NCBI GenBank assembly: GCA_947598485.1
Contig: CANQFJ010000017.1
Span: 1 to 37,842 of the forward strand
Source: an uncultured Bacilli bacterium
Lineage (GTDB): Bacteria > Bacillota_I > Bacilli_A > RF39 > UBA660
Reading direction: 5' to 3'
DNA length: 37,842 nucleotides
Both the position numbers and the translations under genes were made by a program. The number at the start of each line of letters is the position of its first letter. Positions within the stretch are counted from its first letter, which is position 1. Below, in pieces: positions 4,342-32,060 of the stretch. The notes under the pieces were generated by a model. It saw nothing but the letters and a program-made list of their open reading frames with translations, was not told the DNA's origin and did no database searches.

Positions 4342-4388
4342 ACTCCATATCTCCGCCAAATATTATACCATCCTCTTTTTAATAAATG

Positions 4389-6332
4389 CTATCCAATGTA
4401 TTTATAATAATTCTCTGTCATAATTAATCTACTCATATTAATTTTATTATTAACTATGTTATTCATATTGCTAACATAATCTTTAGGTATTTTCGTATTT
4501 TCCTTAGGAACAAATTTAGATGTTGAAGAGTAATATGTTCCATAATCACTTACCCAAGAATTATTGCCAAATATAGCTAAACCTGGAGTTGTGCTTAAAA
4601 TATCCTTGCCTATAATAAGCCTAGAATCATACTCTAAGCCAAATACATTATAAATAGTAGGTAAAACATCTATTTGACTACCAACTTTTTCAACCTTAAC
4701 TTTATCCATTTTATTATTCCACAAAATAAAATTACTATGATTTATTTCCACCACAAAATCTTTGGTATTTTTAGTTATGCTATTAATGTCATCTTCGGAC
4801 AATAAATAAGGATAATGGTCTCCTACTAAGGCAATAACAGTATCATCTAATTTACCACTTTTTTCTAATTTTTTTAGCAAAGATTCCAATGCCCTATCGA
4901 GTTCAATTTGACTAGCTATATAAGCTTTTGCATTTTCAGAATAGTTTAAATTATCAACTAGTTCTTTATTTTTTTGACTTATCTCATTACCACTCCAAGA
5001 ATAACCACCATGGCCACTTACAGTAACATAATATGTAAAAAAAGGTTTATCACTATTTATGTAATCATCAAAAGTTGAATTGATTAGTTCAACATCACTC
5101 TCAGGCCATGAATCACAATTTATCCTCTTTTCTAGGCCATTACCACAGCCTAAATAATTATTAAAACCTAAAGCGGATAAATATAGATTACGATCTTGAA
5201 ACGTATAAATATGATTATGGTAAGCAAAAGTATTATAACCACCATTTTTAAACATATTAGCAATACCAAATGGAAAAGCATTCTTTCCGTTTCTCCAAGG
5301 TGATAAAAAGCTTGATGATGCAACCAAACCCGTTAATTCTTGAAACTCTCCGCCTATTGTACTACTGATAGTAGGTGTATAAAAGTTTGAAAATACAAAT
5401 CCACTATTTACCAATTTATATAAAGTTGGGGTTAACTTTTTATCTACAGCTATTTCATTAAAACTTTCAGCCATAAATAAAATTAAATTTTTATTTTTAA
5501 AAAAGCCCGTATACTCATTTTGTAATGTTCCTGGATCATTTTTAAAGTATTCATGCATCATTTTTATGGTACCACTGCTTTTAGCAATCAAATCATCAAA
5601 TTGAATATCTAAATTATTATATTTATAATTTTTATCGCTATTGTCATTATTTAATCCATTATTAATATTTGATGCCGTAGGGTCTATATTTGTGTCAAAG
5701 CCAATAAAGTATCTTACTAAATCAATAAACATTGTATGAGCTACCCCAAGTCTTTTTAAACTAAGTTCAACATTATGAGTATTATAAAATAAATTATAGG
5801 CAGAATAATAATCATCTTTATTAATATTTAAACTTAGTAAAAATAATCCATATACAGCAAGTGTTAAAGGAATAAGCAATAAATTTTTCGTAAATTTAAT
5901 AGAATTAGTACTAATTTTTTTATTTATAAATGCTACTATAACCATTGGCAAGAAAACAATTAATAAGTAAATAAAATTGTGAATAATTAATTTTATGGTT
6001 TCACCCGAAAAAGTTAAAACCTGATCTATAGTACGCAGAAGAGAAAAATCAAAATAAAAATTAAAAATATTATGAACTAATATTTGGATAGCAAAAAATA
6101 AACTTATTATACCTATAAATATAAACATCAATATTTTATTAATCTTGCTAGAAAATAAAGATGTTAAAAATTTGCAAGCCAAAGACAAGGCAATAATATA
6201 TAGTAAATTATTTACTAGGTTCCATGAAAAGATACTATGAGCATTTATTTTAAATACAATTTCTAAATAGCAAAAAACAAGAAAATAAATAAACAAAGAA
6301 TCTATTTTTTGAGAATGTTTTAATCTTTTCAT
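4389..6332 (-). CDS. LtaS-family sulfatase-fold phosphoglycerol transferase
   Basis: This 647-residue membrane enzyme resembles lipoteichoic acid synthase, which transfers glycerol-phosphate from phosphatidylglycerol onto a growing polymer on the outer face of the membrane. About five hydrophobic segments fill residues 10-185. After a low-complexity linker rich in N and D, the extracellular alkaline-phosphatase/sulfatase domain begins near residue 285 with 'LILFMAESFNE' (metal-binding Glu), then 'SSTIGGEF', where the catalytic Thr of LtaS is expected. It ends with 'VIALVGDHYPYL' (metal-binding Asp/His). Its polymer or lipid substrate cannot be told from sequence; an LtaS-like or other sulfatase-fold transferase is equally possible. 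It is inserted between recO and yqzL/era, which are adjacent in B. subtilis. A good sigma-A promoter precedes it. Confidence 0.85.
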   Translation of the reverse strand: MKRLKHSQKIDSLFIYFLVFCYLEIVFKINAHSIFSWNLVNNLLYIIALSLACKFLTSLFSSKINKILMFIFIGIISLFFAIQILVHNIFNFYFDFSLLRTIDQVLTFSGETIKLIIHNFIYLLIVFLPMVIVAFINKKISTNSIKFTKNLLLIPLTLAVYGLFLLSLNINKDDYYSAYNLFYNTHNVELSLKRLGVAHTMFIDLVRYFIGFDTNIDPTASNINNGLNNDNSDKNYKYNNLDIQFDDLIAKSSGTIKMMHEYFKNDPGTLQNEYTGFFKNKNLILFMAESFNEIAVDKKLTPTLYKLVNSGFVFSNFYTPTISSTIGGEFQELTGLVASSSFLSPWRNGKNAFPFGIANMFKNGGYNTFAYHNHIYTFQDRNLYLSALGFNNYLGCGNGLEKRINCDSWPESDVELINSTFDDYINSDKPFFTYYVTVSGHGGYSWSGNEISQKNKELVDNLNYSENAKAYIASQIELDRALESLLKKLEKSGKLDDTVIALVGDHYPYLLSEDDINSITKNTKDFVVEINHSNFILWNNKMDKVKVEKVGSQIDVLPTIYNVFGLEYDSRLIIGKDILSTTPGLAIFGNNSWVSDYGTYYSSTSKFVPKENTKIPKDYVSNMNNIVNNKINMSRLIMTENYYKYIG

Positions 6333-6353
6333 AATTCACCACTACTAATTATA

Positions 6354-6381
6354 ATTATAGCAATATTATTTAATGTTGTAA
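6354..6381 (-). promoter_or_regulatory. Sigma-A promoter of the LtaS-like gene
   Basis: On the minus strand TTACAA and TATAAT are separated by 16 nt, about 20 nt upstream of the ATG at 6332. The preceding 100 nt up to the yqzL terminator hold no ORF, so this looks like an independent transcription start. Confidence 0.6.
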
Positions 6382-6483
6382 CTATTATTTAAACTAATTT
6401 ATATTTGCAAAATTTAGTTTTTTTCGATGTTTATAATACCCCACTTTTAAAATTTTATAGTATATTTTTGTTTTAAGATAAAT

Positions 6484-6520
6484 CAAAAAAAGAAAGACTA
6501 TTCTTCATCGTCTTTCTTTT
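6484..6520 (-). terminator. Intrinsic terminator downstream of the era-yqzL unit
   Basis: AAAGAAAGAC and GTCTTTCTTT pair around an 11-nt loop, followed on the minus strand by a run of seven T. The hairpin overlaps the last codons and stop of yqzL, so the rpsU-side operon appears to end here. Confidence 0.75.
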
Positions 6521-6587
6521 TATATTCCAAATAATCCTCTATCTTGCCACTTTCTTTAAACTTTTCCCAAGCTTCTTTTTTATTCAT
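6498..6587 (-). CDS. yqzL: YqzL-like small protein
   Basis: This 29-codon gene is too short for the ORF track. It encodes MNKKEAWEKF...SGKIEDYLEYK..., which matches the pattern of the small YqzL family (a Trp and Phe followed by '(T/S)G.I..YL.YK'). YqzL proteins sit between era and recO in Bacilli, and that is exactly the position here. The ATG is preceded by AAAGGA at a suitable distance. The function of the family is unknown to me. The terminator for the operon overlaps its 3' end. Confidence 0.8.
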   Translation of the reverse strand: MNKKEAWEKFKESGKIEDYLEYKKKDDEE

Positions 6588-6631
6588 ATCATTTTTCCTT
6601 TCAACATAATTATGTGATAGGAAAACAAATT

Positions 6632-7516
6632 TTATTCATTATTAACGTAACCTAGTTCTAATAAATATTTTTCTTTATCCTTCCAGTTCTTTATTGTTTT
6701 AACATAAAGTTCAAGATATACTTTTTTATTTACCATTTTTTCAATTTCTTCTCTAGCTAAAATGCCTACTTTTTTAAGGCGATTACCATTTTTACCTATA
6801 ACTATTTTCTTTATTGAATCTCTGTCTACTATGATGTCTACCAATATATTAACAATATCTTTTTTTTCTTCATAGCCCGTGCAAGTGCAAGCAATAGAGT
6901 GAGGCACCTCATCAATTGTATCATTTAAAAGCTTTTCTCTGACGATTTCTCCTACCATAAAGCTCATAGAGTTTGTAGTTATATAATCATCATCAAAATA
7001 CTTAACATCATCTTTTAGGTATTTTTTAATAACCTTTAATAAAACATCAGTATTATCGCTAGTTTGAGCCGATACTGGTACAATGTCACTAAAAGAATAT
7101 AAATCTTTATAATCAAGAATAGTTTTCATTATTTCTTCTTCACGCATTTGATCAATTTTATTGATTACTAAAACCACTGGAGTTTCTACCTTTTTTAACA
7201 TTTCGATTATATACCGATCTCCAGGTCCTATCCCTTTTTTACCATCTACTACCAATAAGACACAATCAACATCTTTAATTTGTTCTAAAGATTGCTTATT
7301 CAAGGCTCTGCCAAGTTTATTTAAAGGCTTAGCAATTCCTGGGGTATCTACAAATACAATTTGTAAATCCTTTTCATTATAAATTCCTTGAATAATATTT
7401 CTGGTTGTGCCGGCTTTATCGGATGTGATAGCAATTTTGTTCAATATAAGGGTATTTAATAAAGTGCTTTTTCCAACGTTAGGTCTACCTATTAAACTTA
7501 CAAAACCGCTTGTCAT
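6632..7516 (-). CDS. era: GTPase Era
   Basis: Era binds the 3' end of 16S rRNA and checks 30S ribosome assembly. The 294-residue protein has an N-terminal GTPase domain with G1 'GRPNVGKST', a switch region 'AGTTRN', G3 'DTPG' and G4 'NKID', followed by a C-terminal KH domain with 'IVIGKNGNRLKKVG'. The ATG has a GAGGGG ribosome site inside the gap to dgkA. The ybeY-dgkA-era order matches Bacilli, but the cytidine deaminase gene cdd, usually between dgkA and era, is missing. Confidence 0.98.
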   Translation of the reverse strand: MTSGFVSLIGRPNVGKSTLLNTLILNKIAITSDKAGTTRNIIQGIYNEKDLQIVFVDTPGIAKPLNKLGRALNKQSLEQIKDVDCVLLVVDGKKGIGPGDRYIIEMLKKVETPVVLVINKIDQMREEEIMKTILDYKDLYSFSDIVPVSAQTSDNTDVLLKVIKKYLKDDVKYFDDDYITTNSMSFMVGEIVREKLLNDTIDEVPHSIACTCTGYEEKKDIVNILVDIIVDRDSIKKIVIGKNGNRLKKVGILAREEIEKMVNKKVYLELYVKTIKNWKDKEKYLLELGYVNNE

Positions 7517-26032: not shown

Positions 26033-26336
26033 ACAACGTGGTATCATAAAGTGGCGCCCTTTTGATAGTGTTATTTCTGGTAATAAAGTAGTAAAAGAAC
26101 TTTTAAAAGAGCGTTCTAAAATCAAAAAACCGATTCTTTCTGAAGAGCAAGAAAATATTTTAGAGCAAAAACTTGTAATAGCTTTTTATACTAATTCATC
26201 TATAAAAGTTTCCTATTTTAATAATGGAACAATTACTGGATTTGAAGATCAAATAAAAAAAATAGATTCCATTTACCATAAAATCTATTTTTATCATCAC
26301 ACTTTATTATTTGAGCAAATTATAGAAATATTATAA
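26022..26336 (+). CDS. YolD-like protein
   Basis: YolD-like proteins are encoded next to Y-family polymerases in Bacillota and are thought to act with them in the SOS response; the mechanism is unknown. The 104-residue protein starts 'MPNEQRGIIKWRPFDSV' with the conserved 'RG.IKW.PF', and ends in 'ITGFEDQIKKID' with a beta-rich core. The track starts ten codons earlier. The ATG at 26022 has GGTGG ahead of it and overlaps the polymerase stop, so the pair is translationally coupled under the LexA box. It converges with the acidic protein gene, overlapping by 6 nt. Confidence 0.88.
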   Translation: MPNEQRGIIKWRPFDSVISGNKVVKELLKERSKIKKPILSEEQENILEQKLVIAFYTNSSIKVSYFNNGTITGFEDQIKKIDSIYHKIYFYHHTLLFEQIIEIL

Positions 26337-26861
26337 ACCACAATAGCGAGAAAGCAACAGCCAAACAATTAGTAAAGTAATAACCATTAAAATCGCTGTT
26401 CCAATAATTTGAGCAACTTTACTAGGCTCAGATTCTTCTTTTGGGGTATATTCTTTTTTTTCTTCAGGCTTTTTAACCGGTTTTTCTTCCTCATTCATTT
26501 CATCATCATAATCTTCTTGAACTGTATGAGACTTTTTAGAATTCTCATAAGGATAATCATCTTCTTGATCTTCATCATTTATAGAAATTTCTTCTTGTTC
26601 TTCCTCTTCTTCAAGAGATATTTCCTCATCTTCAGTTATCTTTTCATGAACGTCTTCGTCATCATCATTGTAAGAATCATCATCGTGATATCTTATATCA
26701 GTTTCTTCTTCATCACTATCACTATCTGAAGACTCATCATCAGAAAAGGCAATTTCATCTTCTTCGTTATCTTCAAGAAGAGGCTTTTCATCTTCACTAG
26801 CATTATTTTTTGGTACTGACTCGCCCTTTAATGCAGGCATTTCTAATTCTTCATCTTCCAT
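26331..26861 (-). CDS. Very acidic tail-anchored membrane protein
   Basis: I do not recognise a family. Of 176 residues about 66 are Asp or Glu, in long runs, with some Ser; the first 145 residues should be disordered and strongly negative. A Lys/Pro/Glu region follows ('KPVKKPEEKKEYTPKEE'), then one C-terminal helix ('IIGTAILMVITLLIVWLLL') and a four-residue tail, giving a tail-anchored topology with the acidic part in the cytosol. It lies downstream of spoVAE in the same direction after an 80-nt gap. A link to spores is possible but unproven. Confidence 0.8.
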   Translation of the reverse strand: MEDEELEMPALKGESVPKNNASEDEKPLLEDNEEDEIAFSDDESSDSDSDEEETDIRYHDDDSYNDDDEDVHEKITEDEEISLEEEEEQEEISINDEDQEDDYPYENSKKSHTVQEDYDDEMNEEEKPVKKPEEKKEYTPKEESEPSKVAQIIGTAILMVITLLIVWLLLSRYCGL

Positions 26862-26941: not shown

Positions 26942-27292
26942 TTAATCTTTAGGATTAAAGAACAAGGATAAGATAAAAGAGAAAACAATTGCTGAAGTAA
27001 TAGCAATAGATGATTTAGTAAGCATGCCGGAAAAAATTCCTATAAGCCCAGCACTTTTATAACCCTCTGCTGCTCCTTGATATAAAAGATGGCCAAAGTT
27101 CATAATTAAAGTAGTAGCTCCTCCACCTACATGATTTACAAGCCAAGGGTAAACGCCAATAAATGATAAAAAAGCTCCAATTATAGTTAAAGCTGTTGTT
27201 ATGTGTCCCGCAGTAAGTTTAGTATTGTCTAAAATTATTTGACCTAACATACAAACGAATCCCGAAAATAAAAAAGCATATAAATAAATCAT
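26942..27292 (-). CDS. spoVAE: Stage V sporulation protein AE
   Basis: Part of the spoVA machinery in the inner spore membrane that moves dipicolinic acid into the forespore and out at germination. The 116-residue protein has three to four hydrophobic helices with family motifs 'FLSFIGVYPWLVNHVGGGATTLIMNFGHLLYQGA' and 'GLIGIFSGMLTKSSIAITSAI'. The ATG overlaps the spoVAD stop (ATGA). It corresponds to SpoVAEb. Confidence 0.94.
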   Translation of the reverse strand: MIYLYAFLFSGFVCMLGQIILDNTKLTAGHITTALTIIGAFLSFIGVYPWLVNHVGGGATTLIMNFGHLLYQGAAEGYKSAGLIGIFSGMLTKSSIAITSAIVFSFILSLFFNPKD

Positions 27293-28266
27293 GAAAGCAC
27301 CTCAATTTCTACGGCATGCGCTACGGAAGGAATTGTTTCACTTTGGTTTAATAAAACCGGAGTATGAAGCGATCCTGTTCCAACAATAAGAACTCTATGA
27401 TATTTAGGATTTTGCAATATTTTGCAAACAAGAACCATAGGTAGGCAAACCGGGCCACTTCCCCCAGCATACATATTTTGACTATCTAAATAAATGCTAC
27501 TACCCGCATCAATAACATTTAAAAGTTTTTGATTATAAACCTTTTCATAATATTCTTTCAATATAGAAACTCCTACTTTACCAAGATCACCACTTAAAAT
27601 AACATCATACTCACTTGGCGTTTTATTCATATTTTTTAAATGATTATATATTGTATCTGCACAAGCAGGAGCCATAACTGCACCCATGTGATTTACATCT
27701 TTTATTCCCATGTCAATAACCTTGCCAACTGTAGCAGATTTAATTTTAATTTTTGTTTTTTGGTTCGTTAATATTACACCAACTGCTCCCGTTGCTGTAC
27801 AAGTAGCAGTATTTGGCTTAGTATTTCCATACTCAATTGGATAGCGATATTGTCTTTCAGCACTCAAGCTATGGGAAGATGTAAGGCAAATAATATTATG
27901 AGCATTACCACTTTCAATCAAATTTGCTCCGTGAAACAAGCTAAGAGGAAAAGTTGCACAGGCAGCATAAACGCCAATAAAAGGAATGGCAAAATTACGA
28001 GCACTGTAAGAAGTTGCGCAAATTTGATTAAGTAAATCTCCTCCAATTAAATAATCAATGTCCGTATCTTGATAGTTTTTTTTAGAAAGGAGATTATTTA
28101 TTACAGTTTTTTGCATATTTACTTCTGCTTGTTCAACGGTTTTGGATTCATAATAATAATCATCTATGGTAAGATCAAAATTATCTAATTTACCATTTTT
28201 TTCTTTAGGACCACCAATAACAAAATGACTATCTAAATAAACATTATCAAACTTTACACTAGCCAT
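27289..28266 (-). CDS. spoVAD: Stage V sporulation protein AD
   Basis: SpoVAD is a soluble thiolase-fold protein that binds dipicolinic acid on the surface of the spore inner membrane. The 325 residues show 'GVYAACATFPLSL' (around residue 108, the thiolase nucleophile region), 'AERQYRYPIEYGNTKPNTATCTATGAV' and 'YAGGSGPVCLPMVL', all typical. It ends in TGA overlapping the spoVAE ATG and starts inside spoVAC by 8 nt, so the three genes are tightly coupled. Confidence 0.96.
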   Translation of the reverse strand: MASVKFDNVYLDSHFVIGGPKEKNGKLDNFDLTIDDYYYESKTVEQAEVNMQKTVINNLLSKKNYQDTDIDYLIGGDLLNQICATSYSARNFAIPFIGVYAACATFPLSLFHGANLIESGNAHNIICLTSSHSLSAERQYRYPIEYGNTKPNTATCTATGAVGVILTNQKTKIKIKSATVGKVIDMGIKDVNHMGAVMAPACADTIYNHLKNMNKTPSEYDVILSGDLGKVGVSILKEYYEKVYNQKLLNVIDAGSSIYLDSQNMYAGGSGPVCLPMVLVCKILQNPKYHRVLIVGTGSLHTPVLLNQSETIPSVAHAVEIEVLS

Positions 28267-28696
28267 TTATAACAACCCCCAATATGCAGAAGAAAAAGGC
28301 AGCTACTACCCCATAAAGAATGGCACTACCCGCAAGCTTAAAGGCATTTGAACCAATTCCCTTGATAAAACCATCTTTTTTATAATCAATCGTTGCTGAT
28401 GCCATTGAATGGGCAAATCCTGTAGTAGGAATAATAAGCCCACATTTCCCCTTCTCTACTAAATTATCAAAGACACCAAAAGCAGTTAACATAGAAGTTA
28501 TCAAAATAACGGTAAGACAAGCCACACTCATTGAATCAACTCTTGAATAACCAAAAATCATCATATATAAATTAATTAATCCTTCGGATATAATTCCCAT
28601 AATTCCACCAAATAAAAAAGCCAAGAAAAGATTTAACCCTCTCTTTTCTTTGGGCAGTTTACGACTAATAAGGACTTTGTATTCTTCTTTGTTCAC
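28259..28696 (-). CDS. spoVAC: Stage V sporulation protein AC
   Basis: SpoVAC is a membrane protein of the spoVA complex that can act as a mechanosensitive channel during spore germination. The 145 residues have about four hydrophobic segments and the family stretch 'LNLFLAFLFGGIMGIISEGLINLYM' and 'CGLIIPTTGFAHSMASATIDYKKDGFIKGIGSNAFKLAGSAILYGV'. It starts at GTG with GGTGA. The usual spoVAA and spoVAB genes are missing, giving a minimal AC-AD-AE set. Confidence 0.95.
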   Translation of the reverse strand: MNKEEYKVLISRKLPKEKRGLNLFLAFLFGGIMGIISEGLINLYMMIFGYSRVDSMSVACLTVILITSMLTAFGVFDNLVEKGKCGLIIPTTGFAHSMASATIDYKKDGFIKGIGSNAFKLAGSAILYGVVAAFFFCILGVVING

Positions 28697-28712: not shown

Positions 28713-28741
28713 TATTATTGGAAAATATTGTAAAGTTATAC
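28713..28741 (-). promoter_or_regulatory. Candidate forespore (sigma-F/G type) promoter of spoVAC-AD-AE
   Basis: GTATA, 17 nt, AATAATA on the minus strand between sigF and spoVAC is near the B. subtilis sigma-G pattern (GnATR-N17/18-CATnnTA, six of seven at -10). spoVA is a sigma-G operon in B. subtilis. The AT-rich context makes a chance match possible. Confidence 0.35.
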
Positions 28742-29379
28742 TATTTAGTTAAAAAAGCACACATTTTGTCTAAGCTACGTTTTTCATAACGCGATACCAT
28801 TACTTGAGTCATACATAATTTTTTAGCTACTTCACTTTGCGTTAAATCTTCAAAATATCTTGCTTTAATAATCTTTTTTTCTTCATCATTTAGTTCATCG
28901 ATACTTTCTTCGAGTAAAATTTGATCATCCAAGCTAACTTTTTCTTCACTTCTTAAGCTGTCGTATAAAGTAGCCTCTTCACCTGAATCTAAAGACATAA
29001 TGTCACTTCCAGCCATAATTGCATCTTCAATATCTTTTTCACTCATTTCTAGAAAGTGAGCCACTTCACTGTTCGAGGGAATCCTCCCATACCTTTGGGC
29101 TAAAGCATATCTAGTCTTTTCTATATCACGATACAATTTTAAAATATCTTTATTAACTTTCATAGCCTTATTATGGGCAAGCATATACATTTCACCATAA
29201 ATGTAATTATAAGCATAAGAAGAAAATTTAGTATTTTCATTTTTATCATAATTTTGATAAGCTTTAATTATTCCTAATACTCCTGCTTGATATAAATCTT
29301 CTTTCTCCACACCATAAAATGCACTAGCTATTTTAAATATTAATCCTTCATTTTCTTTAATCAAAATATCAAGGTTCAT
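28741..29379 (-). CDS. sigF: RNA polymerase sporulation sigma factor SigF
   Basis: A sigma-70 family factor of the SigF/SigG/SigB group that should direct early forespore transcription. Regions visible in order: 2.1-2.2 'DLYQAGVLGIIKAYQNYDKNENTKFSSYAYNYI' (residues 27-59), region 3 'RIPSNSEVAHFLEMSEKDIEDA', and region 4 with a helix-turn-helix 'LTQSEVAKKLCMTQVMVSRYEKRSLDKM'. Length is 212 residues against about 255 in B. subtilis, the shortfall being before region 2. Its place between spoIIAA and spoVA identifies it as sigF. The start, 2 nt after the spoIIAA stop, has GAGGTG. spoIIAB is absent. Confidence 0.9.
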   Translation of the reverse strand: MNLDILIKENEGLIFKIASAFYGVEKEDLYQAGVLGIIKAYQNYDKNENTKFSSYAYNYIYGEMYMLAHNKAMKVNKDILKLYRDIEKTRYALAQRYGRIPSNSEVAHFLEMSEKDIEDAIMAGSDIMSLDSGEEATLYDSLRSEEKVSLDDQILLEESIDELNDEEKKIIKARYFEDLTQSEVAKKLCMTQVMVSRYEKRSLDKMCAFLTK

Positions 29380-29381
29380 GA

Positions 29382-29714
29382 CTACACCTCGATTACTTTA
29401 TAGGCAATAAGTTCATTATCTATCTTTTTTATTTTAAGCTTACTTACTGTTTTATTTAACATTTTATTAACTTCACAAACGTAAATTAAACCACCATTTT
29501 GCTTAATCGCTGCCTTAGTGTTTAATAGAGCATCCACGCCATCTTCATCTATATCAATTAGATTGTATAAATTATACACTAAATATTTAATTTTATGTTT
29601 CAATAAGATAGTTAGTAAACAGTTATTTATTTTATATGTAGTTTTGCGATTTAGTTTACCATCGAGTCTGACAAATAATATACCTTTGCTGTATTCCATG
29701 TCCATTTTAAGCAT
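29382..29714 (-). CDS. spoIIAA: SpoIIAA-like anti-anti-sigma factor with altered phosphorylation site
   Basis: This is a STAS-domain protein. In B. subtilis SpoIIAA frees sigma-F by binding SpoIIAB and is switched off when SpoIIAB phosphorylates Ser58. The 110-residue product aligns along its length ('VRLDGKLNRKT', 'YLVYNLYNL', 'KQNGGLIYVCEV'). At the phosphorylation loop, however, B. subtilis DSSG reads DEDG, so residue 58 is Asp. The track begins at a TTG; the ATG at 29714 has AGGTGA and gives the usual length and numbering. Tandem Spo0A boxes lie upstream. With no spoIIAB next door, the classical switch cannot work as described. Confidence 0.85.
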   Translation of the reverse strand: MLKMDMEYSKGILFVRLDGKLNRKTTYKINNCLLTILLKHKIKYLVYNLYNLIDIDEDGVDALLNTKAAIKQNGGLIYVCEVNKMLNKTVSKLKIKKIDNELIAYKVIEV

Positions 29715-29770
29715 ATATATCACCTTTTCCAAGCAACACTATAATATTAATATGATAGTAATTAAATACT

Positions 29771-29840: not shown

Positions 29841-29868
29841 AAAAAAGATAACCTCTTAGATTATCTCT
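29841..29868 (-). terminator. Terminator after the transglutaminase-like gene
   Basis: AGATAATC-TAAGA-GGTTATCT followed by TTTTTTATTTG on the minus strand. It overlaps the end of the gene and isolates the spoIIA operon from upstream transcription. Confidence 0.7.
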
Positions 29869-30808
29869 TAGTAAAACTCATATTAGGATTTTTAAGACTT
29901 CTTTTTTGATATCCTATATTTTCATATCCTTCATGTAAAACTTGATTATCAAGTTCTGAAAGGAAATTGTAATAGTCCGAAATGTTATATGGGGTTTCAT
30001 AAGAAAAATCCCCTGTTTTTTCATAGTATAAACCATTACGGTAAAATAGTGTAAAACCATCAAAATAATTTTTCATATTTTCTTTAGTCAGTTCAATCCA
30101 ACCATTATCTAATAAATCTTGAGCCGTATTTTTCCTTGAACCATTCATAACCATAAAAGTTCCTGGATTAGGGCTAGATAAATATGGTGTACCCAGTTTT
30201 TCAAGTAAGCATCTTTTTTGCATAAAAAATTGTTTATAAGTTGCATCAACTAAATAAGCTTTAGCTTTATAATTAATAACAACCACAATGTGTTTACACC
30301 CTCCATCGTAAAGTGGAGAATTATATAAGTATCCTGGTTCAATAATTTTTATTTTAGCATCAAGGCCCATCGTTCTAGCCATCTTATAAATTGATAAGGA
30401 TGATTCCTGGCAATCACAGTATGCATCATAGTCTTCAAAACTTTGATAACCTAAATTCTTAGCATGGGCAAATAATCGGCATCTTTCTTGATAAACAAGA
30501 GCATCAAGTATTTGATTAATATCCATAGTTCTTTCAAGCCATTTTTCATCATTAAAATTATATGGTTTTATATTTATAATACTTTCATTAGGCATAAATT
30601 TTATAATTGACTCAATTTGATGAGATATAAAAGGTAACTTAAGAAAATAAGCTCCCGTATCGTTTAATGCAGCAGATGCGTGTTTATAATAGCTAAAAAT
30701 CTCTCGTAAAAGATCATACTTTTTATCACCTTGAGCAAAAATAATTTGTTCATGATAATTATCTATTTCTTTTTGCATGTCTGCTAGTATTTTAGAATCT
30801 TGTGCCAT
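29861..30808 (-). CDS. Transglutaminase-like cysteine protein
   Basis: The 315-residue protein has a papain/transglutaminase-like arrangement in its middle: 'CDCQESSLSIYKMARTMGLDAKI' (Cys133, possibly Cys131), 'CKHIVVVIN' (His173) and 'AYLVDATYKQF' (Asp188), the usual Cys-His-Asp order. The N-terminal 100 residues are helical and the C-terminus has Tyr-rich loops. No signal peptide or membrane helix, so it acts in the cytosol of its cell. It has its own strong promoter and terminator and lies between dacF and spoIIAA, neighbours in B. subtilis. Cross-linking of spore coat or protease activity is conceivable but not shown. Confidence 0.65.
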   Translation of the reverse strand: MAQDSKILADMQKEIDNYHEQIIFAQGDKKYDLLREIFSYYKHASAALNDTGAYFLKLPFISHQIESIIKFMPNESIINIKPYNFNDEKWLERTMDINQILDALVYQERCRLFAHAKNLGYQSFEDYDAYCDCQESSLSIYKMARTMGLDAKIKIIEPGYLYNSPLYDGGCKHIVVVINYKAKAYLVDATYKQFFMQKRCLLEKLGTPYLSSPNPGTFMVMNGSRKNTAQDLLDNGWIELTKENMKNYFDGFTLFYRNGLYYEKTGDFSYETPYNISDYYNFLSELDNQVLHEGYENIGYQKRSLKNPNMSFTKR

Positions 30809-30872: not shown

Positions 30873-32012
30873 TTAAATGAATGATAATGCTATTTTAAGA
30901 TTTTTAACAAAAAAGTTTAAAATATTTGCTTTTTCAACATTTTCTTTAACAGTTACGCCTACTTCGTTAACTAATTTATTTTGTTCGTTAAATATTTTAA
31001 TTTTACCTATTACTTCCTCTTTTTTAACGGGAGCTTTTATTTTATTAGTAGACAATTCAAACCGATAATTTGAGCTTTTATCATTAATTTTTAAAAGTTC
31101 AGTAGCATCTTCCATTAAGATAATATCTTCATAATCTTTCTTGCCACCTTCAACCTTGATTCTTCCTATTATTTCGCCCTTTTTCTTAATTAGATTAACT
31201 TTATACATATTAAAACCATAGTTTAATAATTTAACCGTATCTTGACTACGATCTTCAATAGTTTCTTCTCCCATGACTACGCCAATAAGTCGCAAGTTAT
31301 TTTTTTTAGCAGTAGATGTTAAACAATAACCTGCAGTAGATGTATATCCCGTTTTTAAACCATCAACACCATCATAAAATCGAACTAATTTATTTGTATT
31401 AACTAGCCAAATTTGAGAACCATCTGGCCTTTTTAAATATTCTTCATAAACCGATGTGTATTTCAAAATATCTTCATGTTTTAATAATTCTTTAGCCATA
31501 ATTGCCATATCATAAGCTGAAGAATAATGATTTTCATCATCAAGACCATGAACATTCACAAAGTTAGTATTTTTTAATTTTAATTCTTTAGCTTTATTGT
31601 TCATTGCTTCAATAAAAGCTTCTTTGGACCCATATGTTTTTTCTGCTAAGGCTGTTATGGCGTCATTAGCGCTAGACATAGCAACGGCCTTTAAAAGCTC
31701 ATTAACCGTATATTTATCTCCGGTTTGTAAAAAAATTTGACTTCCACCCATTGATGATGCGACGTCAGATATCACTACCTCATCATCATAATTTAATGCG
31801 CCAGTATCAATTTTTTCCATAATTAAAAGTAGACTCATTATTTTCGTCATTGAGGCCATTGGTCTTTTTTCATTTTCATTTTGTTTATATAAAATTTCCC
31901 CTGTATTTTGATCAATTAAAATAGCACTTTTGGCTTTTAGGCTTAATGTATCAGCTTTCACAATTTTCAAAGGAATAATTAATACTGTTAACAAAAATAT
32001 TATTTTTTTCAT
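30873..32012 (-). CDS. dacF: D-alanyl-D-alanine carboxypeptidase (DacF type)
   Basis: This low-molecular-weight penicillin-binding protein trims the terminal D-Ala of peptidoglycan stem peptides; DacF acts in the forespore on cortex cross-linking. A signal peptide (residues 1-20) precedes the S11 peptidase domain with 'SMTK' (Ser54, Lys57), 'SSAND' (SxN) near residue 115 and 'LKTGYT' (KTG) near residue 218. A PBP5-type C-terminal beta domain and an amphipathic end follow ('NILNFFVKNLKIALSFI'). The ATG at 32012 has GAGG; the track start is a GTG two codons earlier. Its vicinity to spoIIAA recalls the dacF-spoIIA order. Confidence 0.93.
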   Translation of the reverse strand: MKKIIFLLTVLIIPLKIVKADTLSLKAKSAILIDQNTGEILYKQNENEKRPMASMTKIMSLLLIMEKIDTGALNYDDEVVISDVASSMGGSQIFLQTGDKYTVNELLKAVAMSSANDAITALAEKTYGSKEAFIEAMNNKAKELKLKNTNFVNVHGLDDENHYSSAYDMAIMAKELLKHEDILKYTSVYEEYLKRPDGSQIWLVNTNKLVRFYDGVDGLKTGYTSTAGYCLTSTAKKNNLRLIGVVMGEETIEDRSQDTVKLLNYGFNMYKVNLIKKKGEIIGRIKVEGGKKDYEDIILMEDATELLKINDKSSNYRFELSTNKIKAPVKKEEVIGKIKIFNEQNKLVNEVGVTVKENVEKANILNFFVKNLKIALSFI

Positions 32013-32060
32013 ATCCACCTCATAGTAAATAATATTGTTTCTTCCTTTAAATTAGAATTC

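Follow-up and report, generated by a model that had tools for sequence, protein, structure and literature searches.

The stretch of DNA analysed here, referred to as the window in the following, comprises 37,842 nucleotides and harbours on its minus strand a gene for a STAS-domain protein of 110 amino acids (29382..29714), assigned via Pfam STAS, TIGR02886, PDB entry 1th8_B and an AF2 model as a descendant of SpoIIAA. It is followed on the same strand by sigF (28741..29379), which codes for a sigma-F of 212 amino acids. Merely 2 nt separate the stop codon of the STAS gene from the start codon of sigF and no spoIIAB is present in between, as a previous reading of the letters alone (the sequence-only reading) had noticed and as the gene coordinates bear out. 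The last two codons of the STAS gene read GAGGTG (29385..29390, minus strand) and were recognised by eye as a putative Shine-Dalgarno sequence of sigF, the minus-strand context being GTAATCGAGGTG TAG TC ATG. Its position inside the 3' end of the STAS gene would probably couple the translation of both genes. As start codon of the STAS gene the ATG at 29714 was preferred over the TTG at 29732 because the family consensus begins with ML; the probable Shine-Dalgarno sequence belonging to it is AAAAGGTG (29721..29728, minus strand).

The neighbouring genes, all of which are likewise encoded on the minus strand, comprise spoVAC (28259..28696; TIGR02838 with 117 bits, under the cut-off of 164), spoVAD (27289..28266; TIGR02845 with 341 bits) and spoVAE (26942..27292; TIGR02839 with 106.6 bits), the latter two also scoring under their respective cut-offs. 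On the other side of the STAS gene, a D-alanyl-D-alanine carboxypeptidase with NCBIfam matches of the PBP/DacA type occupies the position of dacF (30873..32018); it is syntenic and 84% identical in the related metagenome-assembled genome (MAG) L110. Between this gene and the STAS gene, a protein of 315 amino acids belonging to no Pfam family is encoded (29861..30808), which is syntenic in L110 with 59% identity and shows, between the window and L110, the lowest conservation of any gene from dacF to spoVAE. Its Cys/His/Asp pattern (CDCQ, CKHIVVV, VDATY) is reminiscent of enzymes of the papain or transglutaminase type. Right after spoVAE, at 26331-26861, the window encodes a highly acidic low-complexity protein with a C-terminal transmembrane segment, syntenic in L110 with about 47% identity. 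In B. subtilis the genes are arranged in the order dacF-spoIIAA-spoIIAB-sigF-spoVA. Judged against this order, the locus in the window is a spoIIA operon from which spoIIAB is missing.

The STAS protein scores above the cut-off of Pfam STAS (42.8 bits) and finds its best NCBIfam match in the SpoIIAA model TIGR02886 (E 9e-11), albeit with 41.7 bits well under the equivalog cut-off of 114.75. A sequence search against the PDB retrieves the SpoIIAA structures 1th8, 1tid and 1auz with E values of about 1e-8, and the top fold match of the AF2 model (pLDDT 95.3) is 1th8_B, i.e. SpoIIAA from its complex with SpoIIAB, at a TM score of 0.91. The C-terminal part of the window protein is, however, shorter than that of SpoIIAA. 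The statement of the sequence-only reading that the protein aligns along its whole length is therefore too strong, while the match to the STAS fold itself stands. The same reading had placed a phosphomimetic aspartate at position 58, which is off by one: HMMER alignments, including those to 1th8, 1tid and 1auz, place DEDG of the IDEDG motif onto D57-S58-S59-G60 and thus yield Glu58 and Asp59, with the numbering of B. subtilis SpoIIAA cross-checked against the PDB alignments. The two nearest relatives of the window also carry Glu58 (DEDG and DEEG). Over 71 distinct copies from the family, however, position 58 varies freely (E 13, I 11, M 11, L 9, N 9, K 4, Y 3 and others), with serine or threonine present in just three of them. 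The notion of a conserved phosphomimetic residue was hence rejected, and the alignments do not support the idea that such a residue is what matters about this site. The pattern within these alignments rather indicates that a constraint on position 58 has been lost than that an acidic residue has become fixed.

This loss extends to the surface by which SpoIIAA recognises its partners. Published complexes assign partner contacts to D23, Y53 and S56 of RsbV and to E21 of SpoIIAA (PMC7340262), and R67 has been described as a further partner contact of SpoIIAA (PMC11418112). Comparison of 29 canonical SpoIIAA proteins from the class with 40 STAS copies from the family reveals that E21 drops from 26/29 to 9/40, D23 from 28/29 to 2/40 and S58 from 29/29 to 2/40, while F55 and R67, both invariant in the canonical proteins (29/29), occur in none of the 40 family copies. 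Positions supporting the fold are, in contrast, retained in the family (G20 in 40/40, N49 in 38/40, D57 in 37/40, G76 in 38/40). These counts show that the SpoIIAA descendant has lost the phospho-serine together with the residues docking SpoIIAB and SpoIIE and has kept the STAS fold. Conservation has been gained in the family at E8, K/R11, G12, R17, E106 and A109, which may constitute a new partner face or else be of structural significance.

Among the sporulation sigma factor models, the sigma-F of the window is best matched by the SigF model TIGR02885 (137 bits compared to 97 bits for the SigG model TIGR02850), although its 137.3 bits lie under the equivalog cut-off of 321.45. In addition to this best match, its assignment is based on the spoIIA-spoVA synteny and on the presence of separate SigG and SigE proteins in the genome. 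The top PDB match is 1l0o_C, the SigF chain of a SpoIIAB-SigF complex (E 5e-29), residue 31 of which pairs with residue 4 of the window protein. Accordingly, about 27 N-terminal residues are missing relative to 1l0o_C. This shortening is common to nearly all members of the family, few of which carry the respective columns.

The genome to which the window belongs (1.26 Mb in 38 contigs, 96.6% complete) was inspected for the remaining components of the switch. Profile searches of this assembly yielded no SpoIIAB over cut-off and no match to SpoIIE; the weak HATPase matches which did appear are sensor histidine kinases possessing a phospho-acceptor (DHp) domain. The Pfam STAS search finds a single copy in the genome, namely that of the window. 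On these grounds, a hidden SpoIIAB or a second, canonical SpoIIAA, which together would have pointed to another role of the STAS protein, was rejected. The early part of the relay is, in contrast, present: ftsZ-spoIIGA-sigE-sigG is intact on another contig (G000:C21), and both SpoIIR and Spo0A are found.

The same picture emerges beyond this genome, the absences given here resting on profile searches as well as on selected stretches of draft genomes. Within the family, 50 of 58 genomes contain sigF, the same 50 contain SpoIIGA and SpoIIR, and Spo0A_C exceeds its cut-off in 52. None of the 58 has a match over the curated cut-off to SpoIIAB or to SpoIIE, which upholds the earlier suggestion that the partner switch is lost. 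Fin, a known anti-sigma-F factor, equally gave no match over its curated cut-off in the 58 genomes, so that its replacing SpoIIAB was rejected. SpoIIAB is also missing over cut-off from all 117 genomes sampled from the order, each of which is at least 90% complete. In the class it exceeds the cut-off in 32 of 149 genomes, accompanied by a canonical SpoIIAA in almost every operon examined. The STAS gene is retained in 42 of the 50 sigF-bearing family genomes, 40 copies having been identified at the locus by the ORF caller and another two, whose start codon is probably unusual, by profile search; across a wider family set it is present in 141 of 193 genomes. At the majority of the 50 loci sigF is its direct neighbour, in many cases no more than 30 nt away, while in one of the 40 ORF-called cases metK separates the two. 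As this arrangement without spoIIAB recurs in dozens of genera as well as in the named MAG relatives L110 and L111, it is more than a chance event. The nearest named relatives are Bacilli MAGs from the gut, one of them from goat rectum, and the gene pattern (no spoIIAB or spoIIE, spoIIGA kept, tiny gut genomes) agrees with the description of RF39 (PMC10868615). The lineage thus probably corresponds to the GTDB order RF39, and the loss of the partner switch is lineage-wide.

Two findings bear on whether the remaining STAS gene still matters to its carriers. Compared with L110, whose STAS protein is 94% identical, pN/pS amounts to 0.043 for the STAS gene, 0.116 for sigF and 0.188 for spoVAD; compared with L111, the values are 0.193, 0.364 and 0.397. 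Since synonymous sites are near saturation the values are rough, but the ranking is clear and identical in both comparisons. The STAS gene is therefore under the strongest constraint among the operon genes measured; it is not decaying in the clade of the window, and its being a pseudogene was rejected. The gene is, on the other hand, absent from 8 of the 50 genomes possessing sigF, spoIIGA and spoIIR, which on the SigF tree corresponds to about six losses, at least three of them defined by well-supported branches. Consequently, STAS is not indispensable everywhere. A distance-matrix analysis of coevolution between STAS and SigF gave no specific signal (partial r 0.20 compared to 0.27 for the SpoVAC control), and there is no clear case of SigF columns shifting along with STAS loss.

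Taken together, the phospho-switch is gone while a phosphorylation-free descendant of SpoIIAA persists. We infer that sigma-F would have to be confined in some other way, as the sequence-only reading proposed; with the switch absent but SpoIIR and SpoIIGA kept this follows logically. As to the role of the STAS protein, we tentatively put most weight, short of an even chance, on an ancestor of the lineage having dismantled the SpoIIAA-SpoIIAB-SpoIIE phospho-switch and having recruited the SpoIIAA descendant for a task in the forespore pathway that does not depend on phosphorylation. In its likeliest form, STAS would touch sigma-F or its holoenzyme directly, tuning activity or stability; timing would be set by transcription of spoIIA under Spo0A, and SpoIIR and SpoIIGA would go on relaying sigma-F activity to pro-sigma-E. 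Direct contact is given most weight because the adjacency of STAS and sigF is so persistent, while the coevolution analysis lends it no support and the independent losses of STAS, which imply that sigma-F can be managed in its absence, count against it. Should a repurposed, phosphorylation-free SpoIIAA indeed bind sigma-F directly, which we consider rather doubtful in this full form, an order of gut bacteria bearing endospore genes would have solved the first cell-fate decision of sporulation in a second way, starting forespore-specific transcription without kinase, phosphatase or phospho-STAS. The losses of STAS, about six without loss of sigF, spoIIGA or spoIIR, sit more easily with a scheme in which sigma-F has no anti-sigma factor whatsoever. 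It would then be confined by the timing of spoIIA transcription, by a shortened sigma-F that binds the core weakly and by gene dosage that is unequal while the chromosome is being translocated into the forespore, with STAS being merely co-expressed and acting elsewhere, for instance on a membrane or septal protein. In favour of it, many genera encode a conserved protein with signal peptide and C-terminal transmembrane segment immediately upstream of STAS; partners other than sigma factors are known for STAS proteins (MlaB, which is among the fold matches), and a short STAS paralogue is found beside yqfC-yqfD. Yet the STAS-sigF adjacency holds across deep divergence, and sigma-F without control is harmful to B. 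subtilis, so that we regard this scheme as possible but somewhat unlikely.

If, alternatively, SpoIIAB had been replaced by an unrelated anti-sigma factor, STAS might still act as anti-anti-sigma factor, displacing the replacement without phosphorylation. Loss of the SpoIIAB face along with newly conserved positions, strong selection on STAS and the maintained compartment signalling via SpoIIR and SpoIIGA would all fit. However, no new gene is conserved between or beside STAS and sigF in all lineages (the upstream gene varies by clade, the downstream one usually belongs to spoVA), Fin is absent, and each independent loss of STAS would demand loss of the inhibitor too, which renders a replacement unlikely. 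That STAS is a remnant in decay as sporulation is being lost might be read from its several losses, from shortened relics in genomes devoid of sigF and from sporulation loss within the family, which includes a member of the window's own genus; a pN/pS of 0.043, below that of sigF and spoVAD even with synonymous sites near saturation, an intact fold and the presence in 141 of 193 genomes make this highly improbable. Just as little credit is due to an artefact by which spoIIAB was overlooked owing to assembly gaps or extreme divergence. The genomes are draft MAGs and their proteins strongly divergent, but in dozens of them STAS and sigF directly adjoin each other on a single contig, SpoIIAB is absent from 117 genomes of at least 90% completeness although its model does detect it in sister families, and the short matches that were checked turned out to be histidine-kinase fragments.

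The protein of the window resembles B. subtilis SpoIIAA (PDB 1th8, 1auz) in its STAS fold, its position directly with sigF and its dacF/spoVA neighbourhood; it differs in lacking Ser58 and the docking residues, and in residing in a genome without SpoIIAB kinase and SpoIIE phosphatase. The RsbV-RsbW-SigB partner switch exhibits a homologous STAS/kinase/sigma architecture, but here no RsbW-type kinase was found and the conserved serine is missing. MlaB, the STAS subunit of the MlaFEDB transporter, is likewise a small STAS protein and binds a partner other than a sigma factor, yet its partner and pathway are different and it is only a weak fold match to the window protein. Textbooks present the partner switch of sigma-F as the mechanism of cell-type-specific transcription. 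A lineage which has kept the relay (SpoIIR, SpoIIGA, sigma-E, sigma-G) and lost the switch allows one to ask for the minimum needed to confine sigma-F, and also how a STAS protein changes partners. A large group of gut bacteria with tiny genomes, whose sporulation is predicted from their genes, must presumably start spore development under other control. That spoIIAB and spoIIE are reduced or absent in RF39 is already known from its sporulation gene set (Field, Bowerman and Hugenholtz 2024, PMC10868615), a gene-presence list which does not mention spoIIAA in its main text and does not treat residue 58, a remodelled surface or selection. New here are the remodelling of the retained SpoIIAA, which has lost Ser58 and the residues for docking, as well as the make-up of the operon, the constraint on the STAS gene and its recurrent loss. 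A recent sporulation predictor, which finds spoIIAB in all its predicted spore-formers, assigns RF39 MAGs a sporulation probability of 0% (PMC12536801); the spoIIAB-less lineage is a warning against predictors based on gene lists.

Several further observations concern STAS genes and their surroundings elsewhere in the family. A genome of the same genus as that of the window (G007) has lost its sporulation genes. Two others, G057 (L178) and G304 (L179), contain a shortened STAS of 78-79 amino acids; the former shows no match to SpoIIGA or SpoIIR and no SigF-like sigma factor, and in the latter STAS comes after the conserved upstream membrane protein with no sigF following. Both may possibly be relics of sporulation loss. 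L170, L171, L173, L182 and L183 harbour a short STAS paralogue of about 77-82 amino acids, which covers the N-terminal portion of the fold. It immediately precedes sporulation genes resembling yqfC-yqfD, recognised by eye, and adjoins a divergent Mur-ligase-like gene; in L173, where the contig ends, only the yqfC-like gene is present. In L176 (G310), a separate STAS gene with the serine motif ISSAG lies beside a PP2C-type phosphatase-like ORF. This pair resembles an ordinary RsbU/RsbV system, of which the family is otherwise devoid, and may result from acquisition or contamination. Many loci of the family (e.g. L160:1907-3301, L048:1216-2610 and L053:3087-4439) encode, ahead of STAS, a member of a conserved protein family which does not occupy that position in the genome of the window. 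This protein measures about 350-480 amino acids and comprises a signal peptide, a beta-rich outer part and a C-terminal transmembrane segment; it matches no credible Pfam family, and its PDB fold matches are meaningless (TM about 0.06). Finally, the genome of the window encodes two adjacent giant RpoD-type sigma factors of 1196 and 913 amino acids (G000:C6:1000-9500; L195:715-4305 and 4371-7112), in which regions 1.2, 2, 3 and 4 are followed by about 450-750 residues outside any Pfam family. In G041:C23, comparable long ORFs containing sigma segments likewise stand in tandem.
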